Origin: Balamuthia mandrillaris
Lineage: Eukaryota; Discosea; Longamoebia; Balamuthiidae
Direction: 5' to 3'
DNA length: 64,000 nt
Assembly: GCA_031835245.1 (NCBI GenBank)
Contig: JAVKOQ010000241.1
Span: 1 to 64,000 of the forward strand
Of the stretch, positions 45,277-52,118 are shown in pieces. The position numbers were made by a program, and so were the translations under genes. The notes beneath the pieces were generated by a model that was not told the origin of the DNA, made no database searches, and saw only the letters and a list, made by a program, of their open reading frames with translations. The first letter of the stretch is position 1; each line of letters starts with the position of its first letter.

Positions 45277-46523
45277 TCACCACTTTAGCTTCTCAGGAAA
45301 GTACTTCTTGATGAGGCCCTGGTAGTAGGGTTTCAATGCCTCCACATCGATTTTGGACTCCTCGTCCTTGCTGTACAAATCGCACTTTTGGAACGCCTTT
45401 TATGTTGAAGTGGTTAACACAGTGTAAAACAACTGAAAATAAAAAGAAAACAAACCTTTATCCAAGGGAACATAGCATGATCTGTTTCGTTGGTGAATTG
45501 AGCATAGGCTCCGGCCTGATGGTAAGGATAGAAGGAGTGAAACCGGATGATGTAAAGTCCCTCAGGCGGCAATGTGCATCCATTGCCCACGCACACTTGA
45601 TACATGTACTCGTCGTGGCCCCAGCTCATGAGCAAGTTCTCCAGCCCACAACCAGCAGAGTAGATGCCGTTCTCCGATTGTTGGTACTCACTCACATTCA
45701 TGTCAGGATTTTCCTTAAAGTACTCTCTGTAGACGATCGAGTCGGAGAAGGGGCAGCCGAGGGGGAAGGTATCGCCCACAACGGCCCATTGGGGTTGGTT
45801 GAAGCATTGAGGGAAGCGGGGATGAGCGAGCAGCTTGCCGAGGTCATGAATGAAGCCGGTCAGGTGGAGCCAGTCGTACTCCTCTCCTGGGAATTGGGCT
45901 CGAAGGGCCTCTGCAAAGTTTGGTTTGTTGTGCGGTGAGTCGACAAATTATACCAAAAGGGAGAAGAATAGTCGACAGAAAAGTAGTCGACAGGAATAGG
46001 AAGTCGACAGAAACAAATGTCGACAGAAACCGGAAAAAAAAGGAAAAATAAGAAAAGAAAAGAAAGAAATGAAAAGAAAGAAAAAGAATGCGAAAAAGAA
46101 CTTTAGAAAGTTACCTGCGGTTTGTAGCAAGTGGACGATTTGAGGGAGGCCCAGGTCGGGGTCCGAGTCGTCCACAATGTCATTGAGAAGCTCGGCTGCC
46201 TCCCTTTTTTTTTGAAAAAAAAAACAAAACAAAAGAATATTTTTGAAGGAAATAAAAAATGTTAAAAAAAGAAGAGAAAAAAACAGAAAAAGAAGAAAAA
46301 AAACAAACCAAATGCTCATCTCAATGCCTGTGTTGAGCTGAGAGTACTTCTTCTTCATCTCGGAGGCAAAGGCGTAGGTCTGGTTGACGTGGTTCTGGCG
46401 GTAGTTGTTCCTCACGCGCTCCTCATACTTGTTAACTCCGTAGTTGCGAAACTGGTGGACCTCTTTGGTGAGGTGAAGCTCGTCGGTGACGCTGTCGCTC
46501 TTCTTTTCCTTGTGCTTGCCCAT
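45277..46523 (-). CDS. MIOX: myo-inositol oxygenase (MIOX)
   Basis: Di-iron enzyme that opens myo-inositol with O2 to D-glucuronate, the entry to the glucuronate-xylulose route. Exon 1 (about 46320-46523): FRNYGVNKYEERVRNNYRQN, NQTYAFASEM. Exon 2: NDIVDDSDPDLGLPQIVHLL with the iron-ligating HD-type helix. Exon 3: EYDWLHLTGFIHDLGKLLAH with the His-Asp pair, QWAVVGDTFPLGCPF, SWGHDEYMYQV, LYIIRFHSFYPYH, FPWIKV. Final exon: GLIKKYFPEKLKW and a stop at 45277-45279. All blocks that hold the ligand His and Asp residues in the family are present, and the length is normal. A CT/TTTCTC-rich stretch lies just upstream (46563-46690 on the plus strand as GA). Confidence 0.93.
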
Positions 46524-47297: not shown

Positions 47298-47641
47298 ATG
47301 CAGAGAGAGGAGGACGAGGCTCCCCTCGGTTCCACCTCCGGCCTCGACCTGAACGATGCCGCGTTGGCCACCTACTTTGAGGACTCACTTCTGCTGAACG
47401 CGGAGGAGAGCAACCGAGAAGGCGGAGGAGGAGGAGGGGGCGGCCTCATCGTTACACCTTACTTACAAACCGCCTCCTCCGCCGTTTCTACGGAGGAAAA
47501 CCACGTGACGCCCACCACACGGGCGCCCTCCTTAGGACTTCCTTTCTCTCTGTCGTTCGGACAGATGTATCCTCACCGCGAAATAGACTTTTCCGAAATA
47601 CAGTTTGACAACGAACCGATCGGCCGGTCGGTTTCTTTCTT

Positions 47642-47687
<46 letters not shown>

Positions 47688-47911
47688 GGGCTTCTGCAAC
47701 ACTTTAACACAATAATACAGAGGAGCTTTTGGGACGGTCTACAGAGCGACGTGGAGAGGAGCACAGGTGGCGGTGAAGAGGCTGAACCTAGCTCGCATTA
47801 CCGAGGTGGAGTTGGAGCAAATCCGGAGGGAGGCCAGTCTCATGGCGTAACGTTTTTTTTTTCTGTGCTCTGCTGTGCTCTGCTATGCTATGCTCTGCTC
47901 TGCTCTGCTCT

Positions 47912-47949
<38 letters not shown>

Positions 47950-48473
47950 TCTAAACAGCAACTCGTTCTTTTCTTTTCTTGTGCTCTTGTTACCAATAGT
48001 TCCTTGGGCAGTCATCCTAATGTATTGGAGTCCATAGGTTCGTTCGATCGGTTCTCTTCTCTTTCTCTTATCGCTTCTGTTCTCTAGTTTTTCTCTTCTT
48101 GCTTCTCTTGTTCCTTCATTCTCGTTTCTCATCATCCCGCTTCGCTTCTCATATCTCACTTTCTTCACTCATCCTCTCGTCCTCTCCTTTCTTTTTTTTA
48201 AAAAAACAAAGGTGTATGTACGAAACCACCAAACGTATGTTTGGTGTCACCCTATCATCGCAACGGCAGCATTCACGACTACCTCAAGGCACATCCCAAT
48301 GTGGATTGGCTGACCAGAGTTGGGTTCGCTCGTGATGCTGCTGCCGGAGTGTTTCACACGCATTGCGAACACATCGTTCATCGGTACAGTACCGCCCTAA
48401 AACAAAAGAAAGAGAGAAGCATAGAGAAACATCGAGAAGCAAATGAAAAAAAGAATGAAGGAATAGAGCGGAC

Positions 48474-48566
<93 letters not shown>

Positions 48567-48877
48567 GAAGAGAACAAAATAAGAATGAAGCCGTGACCTC
48601 ACTCCTTTTATTGCACATAGCGACTTGGCGGCTCGTAACTTTCTGTTGGATGGTAACTTGGTGGCTATGGTTTCAGACTTTGGTCTCTCGCGGTTAGCTT
48701 TGGCGGAAGGCGGCCAAGGCGTTACCGGCACAAACTTTGGACCGGTCAAGCATATGGCTCCCGAGTCCATCGTCAATCGCGTCTACTCTCAAAAGAGCGA
48801 CGCTTTCTCGTTTGGAGTATTTCTTTATGAGCTTGTTACTATGTACACACTCTTCCCTTTCTCTGCTCCTCTCTTTT

Positions 48878-48926
<49 letters not shown>

Positions 48927-51900
48927 CTCATTCTCTTTCATTGTTTCTGTTACTCCAGGCAAGAGCCATATCCAGAAGAATCACTATTGAAAGTCGCGCT
49001 CGAAGTCGTGAAAGAAGGAAGACGGCCAGTGATTCCTTCCGACTGTCCTCCAGTCTTCCGTGACCTTATGACTCGGTGTTGGAAAGAAGATCCTGAAGGT
49101 GGGTTCGTTCTTGTTTGTTAGTTTGATGTTATCACCTGTTGAGAAAGCAATTATTAGAGAGACCAGGTTTTGCAGAGATATTGGAAATATTAGAAACTTA
49201 CAAACGAGAGCTGTTGGCACAAGAGAAGGCTGCTTCAGAAGAAGCTGTTGCTGCTCTGCCAGGTTCTTCCTTCGAACAAACGATCCACAAGAACATGAAT
49301 GAAAACGAATTCCCCAGTAACAACAACCACAATAACAACAAGAATGAACAAGAAAAAGAGCAAGAAGGAACTTTGGAATATTACATGTCTAGTGACGAGG
49401 TATACCATTCTTTCTTCGTTATATGTAATTATGTTGACGGTGTTATGTTTCATCAATAGCACTTGCATGACCTCGTCGTGAAAGCTATGAACACTGTAAC
49501 TGGATTCAATGTACAAAGTAGACGGTGGCATTTAAAAACCTATCCTTGTTGCTTCGTTGGTAAGTTCTCTCCTCCTCCTTATCCTCCTCTTCCTCCTTCC
49601 ATCTCCTCCTTCCTCCTCCCTCCTCCTCTATTATTATTTTTCTTTCATTTGGCTTCTTCTTATTGTTCTCTTTTATTTTGTTATATCATCCACCATCAGC
49701 CTCAGAAGCTGTCGACTGGTTATTGCAAAACACAAACGTCAAAACTAGAGCTGAGGCAGTTCAACTCGGCGACAGGCTCGTTCGCAAGAAGATCATCGTT
49801 CATGTGGTGGATCAGGACAAGCGCTTTCAGGACGATTACTTCTTCTATCGGTTCGTGGAGAAGGCGAAGCTGGTCGTTATAGGTGGGGGCTTTGCCGGCT
49901 CCACCATTGCAAAACGTTTAGAACGAAACTTGGACGTGACGCTCATCGACACCAAAAGCTACTTTGAGTTTGTACCGAGTTTTATTGAACTAGCGACAGC
50001 AGCAACAGCATCAACAAGTAATAACGATAAAGAGATAAACGAACGGCAGCAACAAAACTTTATGTTGGAGAGAGTGAGAAAGGAGCATACGAGTTATTTG
50101 GGATCGACTGAAGTTGTGGTTTGTAAAGAAGGTATCGCTTCGTTCTTTATGCCTTCAGCATTCTTTGCTTGCTTTTTTTCTTGTCCCTTTCTTTCTGTGT
50201 TTTCTCATATAACTACAACACAAAAGGAGTGTCGAGCGTGACTTCAAAGGAAGTCATTTTGATGGATGGCAGATGCTTCCGGTATAACTACCTCTGCATA
50301 TGTACAGGGTCTCGTTACGACGTAGCCGCTAGTTTAGGATTGTCCTTCTCCTCTTCCTCTACGCCCTCTTCTTCCTCTGAATCTTCCGAACCTATTGCCT
50401 CTCCATCTTCCAAAGATAGAAGACAAACACAATTGGAAAAGCTTACACAGCTCATCGAAGAAGAACAGCAACAACAGCTTCAAACCACAAAGAAACAGGA
50501 ACAAGGAGAAGACCAAAACATGAAGAAAGAAAAAGAAGAAGACAAAGAAAAACGCAGAGACAGACCCGATTTTCTCAACAAAGAAGTTCAAGACAAAAGG
50601 ATTGTAGATTGCAGAAGCGCTGAAAGCATCATCAACGCTTCCAACATTCTGAACGACGAACGAACCAAACATATTGTCATCGTTGGAGGAGGCCCAACGG
50701 CTGTAGAACTTCTTGGAGAGCTGACTTCTCGTTACAGCAACAAACACTTCACTTTGGTCTGTCCGCGTTCTCGCTTATTGCACCGAATGCCGGCTTCAGC
50801 ATCCGCTTTTGCGTTGCAACACTTTCAAAAGCACTTTGCGAACAACGTCACATTTTTGTTTCATCATCTCGTGGTTGGACTCACGAACGATGGTAGATGT
50901 TTGTTGCAACTTGTTGACTATGAAGAAGAGGAACGAGAGCAAGCACAACAACCTCAACCTCGAGAAGAAACCGAACAAGAAGAAGCAGATGACGATGATT
51001 CCACCTCCTCATCCTCCTCTTCGTCTTCTACTTCCATTTCGGCTCGTGGAGACAAACCCAAAGAAGAAGAAGAAGAAGAAGAAAGGGAGGAAGACGAGAA
51101 ACACTTTGGCAAGAAAGAGAAGAAGAAGAAGCACAAGGAAAAGCGGAAGAAGAGGAGGAGTCCTCTTTCACCTAGGATTCAATATGACGGAGGCCTATCT
51201 CCAAAAAGAGAACTTGGAGAGGACCAGCACCAACACTTTCTACCACAACTATCACCACCAACACGAGAACGACGAGTTCTCGTCAAGCTCGGAGGAGAAA
51301 CCAAAAAATCCGTTCCAGCGGACCTCATCTATGCTGCAGTCGGTTTTGCGCCCAACACGGAGTTTCTTCGTCGCTCCGACTCGCAACTCTTTGCCTCCGC
51401 GTTGAACGAGCGAGGAGAAGTTCGCGTTAATCCTTTCTTCCAAGTCGGCGGCATGCCTAATGTCTTTGCTTTGGGAGACATCGTTAGCATAGAAACGCTT
51501 TGCTTACCTCCTTCATCTTCCTCGCTGTTTTCTTCTTCTCCTTCATCGTCCTCTTCGTTTATCTATGATAGTTCCTCTGCCGCTTTCGTCACTCGGTCTC
51601 GGACGTTATCATCCGGTTCCATGCATCGTTATCGCAGACGAAAACAGAGATCAAGTCAACCATCACTATCTTCTTCTCCTTTAGAAACCTCCTCCTCTTC
51701 TTTGTCGTCGTCGTCTTCTTCTTCTCCTTCTTCTTCCTTTCGAAGGATCACTCTTGGAGGCTTGTCAAGATCTTCTCCGAAAGGAGAAACCTTGTCTTTC
51801 TCATCCATGTCTGCACAAAGCGTTTGGATTTCCGAAGAGAAACTTGCATCCAACGCGGAGAGACATGCCGAAGTGGTGGCAAAGAACATCAAACATATGT

Positions 51901-52118
51901 CCCGAAGCAGCGTTTGTAAGTTACGAAGTTACACTCCCATCTGTGCCTCGACGATGATGATGAATTGCGGTTGCGATCTTCAGCAGCAGCAACAACAGCA
52001 GCGGATAGTTAGTCTTGGAAGAACAAAGAGCATGAGCTTGAAGGGAGGGGCGGTGAGCAAGACCAAGACCGCTGCAAAGTTTAGGACGTTGTTTCCTTCC
52101 AGGGAGGCTCCATCCTGA
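47298..52118 (+). CDS. tyrosine-kinase-like kinase / DEP / FSP1-like oxidoreductase fusion protein
   Basis: Ten exons: 47298-47626, 47721-47846, 48000-48037, 48212-48383, 48621-48842, 48959-49098, 49158-49399, 49460-49559, 49700-50131, 50227-52118. They total 3693 bases and keep one frame to 1230 residues. Kinase (about 105-360): IGRGAFGTVYRATW loop, VAVKRL lysine, HRDLAARN catalytic loop across intron 4, SDFGLSR, KHMAPES, SFGVFLYELV; all catalytic residues present. DEP (about 424-510): HLHDLVVKAMNTVTGF, RRWHLKTYPCCFV, SEAVDWLLQNTNVKTR, FFYRFVE. Oxidoreductase (about 511-1230): FAD loop KLVVIGGGFAGSTIAKRLE in the same exon as the DEP end, a second Rossmann loop HIVIVGGGPTAVELLGEL, AAVGFAPNT, and MPNVFALGDI, with Ser-, Gln- and Glu-rich insertions. 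The last part resembles FSP1/AIFM2 and related NADH:quinone oxidoreductases. Separate genes are unlikely: the kinase-DEP intron is 60 bases and the DEP start has no ATG. Catalytic output and substrates are unknown. Confidence 0.85.
48478..48565. repeat. (GA)n microsatellite in a kinase-gene intron, purine on the sense strand
   Basis: About 44 uninterrupted GA dinucleotides in intron 4 of the fusion gene. Unlike nearly every other intronic tract here, the sense strand is purine. Confidence 0.95.

Follow-up and report, generated by a model that had tools for sequence, protein, structure and literature searches.

The stretch of DNA considered here, the window, comprises positions 1 to 64,000 of the forward strand of contig JAVKOQ010000241.1 from the amoeba Balamuthia mandrillaris, and the gene under study lies at 47298..52118 on the plus strand. 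According to its splice model, this gene encodes one protein of 1230 residues, in which a tyrosine-kinase-like protein kinase is followed by a DEP domain and then by a flavin adenine dinucleotide (FAD)/NAD(P)H reductase of the FSP1 (also AIFM2 or AMID) type. At the level of sequence, both the fusion and the kinship to FSP1 are well supported. The families are known; their combination is new, and it is found in at least two sources. FSP1 is one of the chief enzymes that protect animal membranes from lipid peroxidation, and a natural polypeptide with all three parts would point to a tie between phosphorylation and this redox work. Among the titles and abstracts found in the open-access literature, none describes a kinase-DEP-FSP1 architecture.

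Gene Structure and Coding Constraint

The original prediction held that ten exons join without a phase error into 1230 residues, and all of them are found at the places proposed: 47298-47626, 47721-47846, 48000-48037, 48212-48383, and 48621-48842 for exons 1-5, and 48959-49098, 49158-49399, 49460-49559, 49700-50131, and 50227-52118 for exons 6-10, with nine GT-AG introns between them and one frame throughout. The spliced product is letter-for-letter the public NCBI protein P0001 of Balamuthia mandrillaris over all 1230 residues, although the record carries only the name "DEP domain-containing protein", and the two splice positions singled out for a check, 49399/49460 and 50131/50227, are exon junctions of this gene model. 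For the ITSON01 strain of the amoeba, an assembly of ~65 Mb with a Funannotate annotation that used RNA-seq reads is reported (PMC10471605), and the public model of this gene may have been shaped by RNA.

A Pfam search of the spliced product returns all three expected domains, i.e., PK_Tyr_Ser-Thr (PF07714, 1.2e-63, residues 106-354), DEP (3.9e-24, residues 439-508), and Pyr_redox_2 (8e-29), the last in three stretches; NCBIfam gives only matches far under its cut-offs. With their full extents, the kinase domain covers residues 96-356 (47583..49198), the DEP domain residues 424-509 (49460..49857), and the reductase residues 511-1230 (49861..52118). The exon that encodes the end of the kinase and the linker is separated from the first DEP exon by intron 7 (49400..49459), which has the predicted length of 60 nucleotides and phase 0 and closes on an in-frame TAG. 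Exon 9 holds the remainder of the DEP domain as well as the GGGFAG loop for FAD, so that these two do share an exon.

Genome searches were made in the window's own assembly (64.8 Mb, 775 contigs), where the window is contig C240. Contig C22 of this assembly carries a second copy of the gene, either an allele or a duplicate, which encodes 1233 residues and lies in synteny with the window over ~10 kb. All nine introns recur at matching places with every splice site retained. The two copies are identical in 96.45% of aligned exon letters and 86.2% of intron letters, and gaps between them come in multiples of three in eight of eight cases in coding sequence, but in only four of 23 in introns (Fisher p = 6e-5). 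Over 1218 codons, the ratio of nonsynonymous to synonymous substitution rates (dN/dS) is 0.18. It is 0.015 for the kinase (one nonsynonymous and 19 synonymous changes), 0.26 for the first FAD part of the reductase, 0.17 for its NAD(P)H part, and 0.37 for the weakly constrained linker at residues 357-423 (eight changes), while low-complexity insert 1 (about residues 633-708, 50322..50549) is near neutral with 0.99. The DEP ratio of 0.40 comes from three nonsynonymous and two synonymous changes, which are too few to judge. Some introns, including the one with 48480-48565, hold long GA/CT microsatellites, and several of the intron gaps between the copies fall within them.

The C22 homologue of intron 7 is 65 nucleotides long and has CAG as acceptor. 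The in-frame TAG at 49457 is accordingly not conserved, though the splice sites stay. When intron 7 is retained, a stop nevertheless comes in frame in both copies and the product is truncated after the kinase, from which it follows that a kinase-only isoform is possible.

Contig C19, with a DEP exon of equal open-frame length (225 residues), was considered as an allele and rejected, since alignment identified it as a different DEP-bearing locus; its kinase lies about 3 kb beyond its DEP domain. Several contig pairs (C145/C153, C39/C43, C102/C160, and others) have DEP or kinase matches at identical coordinates, which points to duplicated or haplotype contigs, so that gene counts in the assembly may be inflated.

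A Three-Domain Relative and the Origin of the Fusion

The same three domains occur in the same order in P0002, a metagenome protein of 1020 residues on a JGI contig of 3678 bases, with an overall identity to the window protein of 41%. Because 1020 residues run uninterrupted on so short a contig, while the Balamuthia gene has nine introns, the contig appears to be complementary DNA. Across the exon 7/8 junction, i.e., where kinase and DEP parts meet, the two proteins share the columns L, E, Y, Y, S, E, and L of the pattern LEYYxxSxxExL. Among the matches listed (five of five, the best 120 of 168, and 12 of 12), only P0001 and P0002 have all three domains. Taken together, the second copy, P0002 with its conserved junction, and the identical public gene model support the prediction of one polypeptide.

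Did the two fusions arise once? A tree was built with 22 Balamuthia kinase loci from among the stronger of at least 171 matches; it includes some near-identical pairs, several rows assembled from exons, and two long outgroup rows. The kinases of the window and P0002 are sisters in it, with moderate support (83/83). In the DEP-FAD part, P0002 is 60% identical to the window protein and 57% to the C22 copy, and the next locus, on C31, reaches 39%. Kinase sisterhood and DEP-FAD identity imply that both halves point to one ancestral fusion. Some observations pull the other way. The value 83/83 is below the usual bar, and the sister pair is not a starred branch. The window kinase is 48% identical to that of C256 over 205 residues and 45% to that of P0002 over 262, and when the genome is searched with the P0002 kinase, C256 and not the window gene comes out best. 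This last ranking has an explanation, in that exons are scored separately and C256 has one long exon; with the spliced kinase as query, the window obtains 226 bits and C256 159 + 43 bits, the latter as two segments with one exon missing.

Partial combinations are also found. P0006 is a DEP-reductase of 518 residues on a contig of 1911 bases that ends before any kinase could appear, and P0003 has several DEP domains and no reductase. P0128 has a kinase and a DEP domain on one chain, as here, but lacks the reductase; GbpC of Dictyostelium is another kinase-DEP protein. In P0131 (from Nitzschia inconspicua) and P0011, a DEP domain is fused to a pyridine-nucleotide-disulphide reductase that resembles dihydrolipoyl dehydrogenase; these are separate DEP-flavoenzyme fusions, which differ from the window protein in that they have no kinase and carry Pyr_redox_dim, a domain typical of a different family of reductases.

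Kinship of the Reductase to FSP1

The prediction of an FSP1-type reductase is borne out by sequence comparison. A profile built from five relatives scores six FSP1 sequences at 150.0-163.4 bits and the next reductases, the type II NADH:quinone reductases (NDH-2; PDB 4nwz, 5na1, and 5kmr), at 74.0 or less, and a search with a single sequence likewise places FSP1 first (E 2e-9). By sequence, FSP1 is a closer relative than NDH-2 or AIF. The window protein has the FAD/NAD(P)H fold and C-terminal domain in common with human FSP1, chicken FSP1, and the reconstructed tetrapod ancestor (PDB 8wik, 8jsc, 7xpi, and 9ift).

A structure model of P0002 was made from 20 aligned rows, NDH-2-like proteins among them. 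Its mean predicted local distance difference test (pLDDT) score is 56.6 and the model is good for the reductase alone, the only part that was used; pLDDT is 84-96 in 20 of the 23 ten-residue blocks of residues 491-720 and 66-93 across residues 841-920. With this model, Foldseek puts five FSP1 entries in the lead by E-value, whereas VIA-align ranks several bacterial NDH-2 enzymes above FSP1, and the assignment was decided by the sequence profile and not by structure ranking. The best 50 matches of the structure search include no kinase or DEP fold, but since the reductase fills these lists, they are uninformative on those two domains.

Most catalytic residues of FSP1, numbered for the human protein as in PMC10643123 and PMC10896247, have their counterparts. 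The reductase motifs are GGGFAG, GGGPTAVE761, G973, GD1018, K1139, A1141, and K1214, by which the equivalents of E156, E160, G244, D285, K293, A295, and K355 are kept. In the GXGXXGXE motif for NAD(P)H, E156 corresponds to E761 and E160 to E765, while G244 corresponds to G973 and D285 of the GD motif to D1018, both invariant in the alignment of relatives. The proton-donor lysine K355 aligns with K1214, in a C-terminal domain of FSP1/NDH-2 type (51834..52118), and this column is invariant in the five relatives. The ends of the human FSP1 match (profile position 68 at chain position 356) agree with this pairing. K1214 also aligns with position 376 of the C. thermarum NDH-2, in a short C-terminal piece with inserts trimmed by hand, and PMC10643123 sets that same position beside K355.

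Other residues have been lost, and these losses weigh against a working FSP1-type quinone reductase. Y296 of the quinone clamp is replaced by S1142 in the window protein and by Q in the other four relatives, although it is reported as strictly conserved in five vertebrates (PMC10896247); for the other clamp residue, F360, F1219 is a possible match in a weak alignment. N49 corresponds to V548 and R54 to E553, and K118 has no Lys counterpart, in a region where the alignment is loose. Chicken FSP1 with R53A, K117A, or K292A/M293A/Y295A is reported as almost completely inactive (PMC10516921), where the equation of chicken R53 and K117 with human R54 and K118 is our own numbering. E164, finally, has become R769; the E164A change is described as tolerated in FSP1 (PMC10643123). 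The window protein differs from FSP1 also by its N-terminal kinase and DEP domain, by three low-complexity inserts, and by its first residues, MQREED, which do not fit the N-terminal myristoylation signal MGxxxS.

Of the inserts, the first is almost absent from P0002 and C31, and the second, of low complexity as well (about residues 823-962, 50892..51311), is mostly absent from P0002. Insert 3 (residues 1025-1136, 51498..51833) is the only one at full size in both kinase-bearing proteins, with 112 extra residues in the window protein and 139 in P0002, compared to none in the kinase-less C31 and C24 reductases and seven in C261. It sits between the GD motif, which holds FAD, and the KLA helix, which lines the quinone site, is rich in Ser/Thr (47% in the window protein) or in Lys/Arg/Ser, and is disordered in the P0002 model (pLDDT 26-46 in ten-residue blocks of residues 721-840). 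These properties make it the best candidate for phosphorylation control, with mixed motif counts: RxxS/T occurs eight times in the P0002 insert against 3.1 in shuffles (p 0.003), but in the window insert, contrary to such control, it is not enriched (three against 4.6 in shuffles).

Kinase and DEP Domains

The kinase has the predicted HRDLAARN loop, in a motif interrupted by intron 4, and a complete catalytic set, i.e., K129 of VAVK, E147 of helix alpha-C, HRD 221-223, N228, DFG 241-243, and APE 268-270, with the catalytic residues invariant between the window protein and P0002. Judged by these residues, an active kinase is predicted. Its specificity is less clear. HRDLAARN and PVKxMAPE are tyrosine-kinase-like, and the best match to a single-domain solved structure is the Src-Abl ancestor (170.5 bits, next to a sum of 220.8 for an EGFR chain with two domains). 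The full tyrosine-kinase signature, however, includes an activation-loop Tyr and PVKW, and here the activation loop has no Tyr and PVKHMAPE has H for W. Moreover, the Ser/Thr kinase CTR1 scores 147 bits, on par with ABL1 at 148. The window kinase shares HRDLAARN, PVKxMAPE, and the catalytic residues with tyrosine and tyrosine-kinase-like kinases (the Src-Abl ancestor, ABL1, and CTR1) and with the Balamuthia loci on C256, C19, and C35, from which it differs by these two features of the activation loop and PVKHMAPE and by its fusion to DEP and reductase.

The DEP domain is full length by Pfam (84.8 bits, over cut-off, model positions 2-72 of 72). When the P0002 DEP domain and a five-sequence profile are used as queries, the nearest solved DEP domains are those of DEPTOR and P-Rex. 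These have tandem DEP domains where the window protein has one, and DEPTOR is a separate protein that acts on mTOR. The tandem DEP domains of DEPTOR are reported to bind phosphatidic acid (PMC8439649). In the window protein, the DEP domain precedes the reductase and thereby occupies the position of the myristoyl anchor in FSP1; its net charge is only +3 to +4, a point against the mechanism proposed below.

Proposed Mechanism and Alternatives

Consider, then, a bifunctional membrane signalling flavoprotein of roughly 1230 residues, encoded by one gene, which couples phosphorylation to the quinone redox state. A short linker would tie a tyrosine-kinase-like kinase to the DEP domain and to an NAD(P)H:quinone reductase of the FSP1 type. 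The role that the N-terminal myristoyl group has in animal FSP1, as an anchor, would fall to the DEP domain, which would carry the enzyme to a membrane. There, the reductase would reduce quinones and shield lipids. The kinase would phosphorylate the reductase in cis, or in trans inside reductase dimers, with insert 3 by the quinone site as the best target, and it would also modify proteins nearby; phosphorylation and quinone redox state would then be linked on a single platform at the membrane. Chicken FSP1 is reported to be dimeric via its C-terminal domain (PMC10516921) and human FSP1 to be monomeric (PMC10896247); in a reductase dimer, two kinases would come close to each other. In a human study, Src is described as raising the stability and membrane localisation of FSP1 indirectly, via USP10 and NMT1 (PMC12510807).

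This mechanism builds on the gene structure, the coding constraint, the domains, the architecture seen again in P0002, the FSP1-type sequence, and the retention of most catalytic residues, and it supposes one transcript, catalysis, a quinone substrate, membrane targeting by DEP, and cross-talk with its direction. We give it an even chance of being right, and the loss of Y296, N49, R54, K118, and E164 is what lowers our confidence. If it holds, one molecule may combine signalling with redox chemistry at the membrane, and a single natural protein offers a place to measure the coupling between kinase and reductase.

The lost residues could also mean that the reductase is a redox sensor and not a working quinone reductase, such that binding of NAD(P)H or quinone switches the kinase. 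Besides the lost Y296, R54, and K118 equivalents, the large insert at the quinone gate and the retained flavin and NAD(P)H motifs fit this account. Still, the residues proposed to form the proton relay of FSP1 (E156, E160, and K355) have retained equivalents in the five aligned relatives, and Y296 is changed in kinase-less relatives too. We consider a pure sensor rather unlikely.

Another possibility is that kinase and reductase are simply delivered to one membrane, with no control of one by the other. The weak constraint on the linker is what would be expected from such co-location, while the conservation of the junction sequence and of the position of insert 3 between P0001 and P0002 is not, and we regard it as unlikely. 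In a bolder reading, the FSP1-type reductase would be controlled in cis, with its own kinase phosphorylating insert 3, the flavin or quinone state feeding back on the kinase, and DEP replacing the myristoyl anchor. This scheme is unlikely too; if true, it would put a lipid-redox switch and its kinase in one molecule.

Finally, it is improbable that the gene mainly makes two products, a kinase-only protein from frequent retention of intron 7 and a DEP-reductase from an internal start (e.g., Met434), with the full fusion minor or absent: the stop met on reading through intron 7 in both copies, the C31 gene, which encodes DEP-FSP1 from a separate start and has no kinase, and an in-frame Met five residues ahead of the DEP core (in P0002, one residue earlier in the alignment) favour it, but splice sites are kept despite the change in intron length (60 versus 65 nucleotides), the TAG is absent in C22, P0002 is continuous through kinase, DEP, and reductase, and the public gene model is full length.

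FSP1-Type Relatives and Neighbouring Loci

Apart from the C22 copy, the genome contains FSP1-type reductases that have no kinase. The C31 locus (L023, C31:176800-186700, minus strand) encodes a DEP-FSP1 protein of 498 residues, with seven exons by model; its first exon has the start codon, and directly upstream are reading frames that look actin-like by eye. Two more reductases, on C24 and C261 (L024 and L025), are each encoded in one long open frame, and by eye their N-termini seem hydrophobic; among 89 genome DEP matches there is none at either place. The likely order of events is that an FSP1-type reductase first became a DEP-reductase, to which the kinase was later added. There are also hints that FSP1-type enzymes reached membranes by several routes, namely by myristoylation in vertebrates, perhaps by DEP here, and perhaps by a hydrophobic N-terminus in C24 and C261.

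Two observations concern other loci. In the window, a myo-inositol oxygenase exon is found on the minus strand at 45414-45947 (Pfam MIOX, 2.7e-64). Elsewhere in the assembly, contig C3 (570 kb; locus L048, C3:415000-424900) has a G+C content of 26-32% over 10 kb, reads TGA as Trp, and holds genes that by eye look like a pyruvate dehydrogenase cluster; it is probably a co-assembled bacterium of mycoplasma type, i.e., a culture contaminant.

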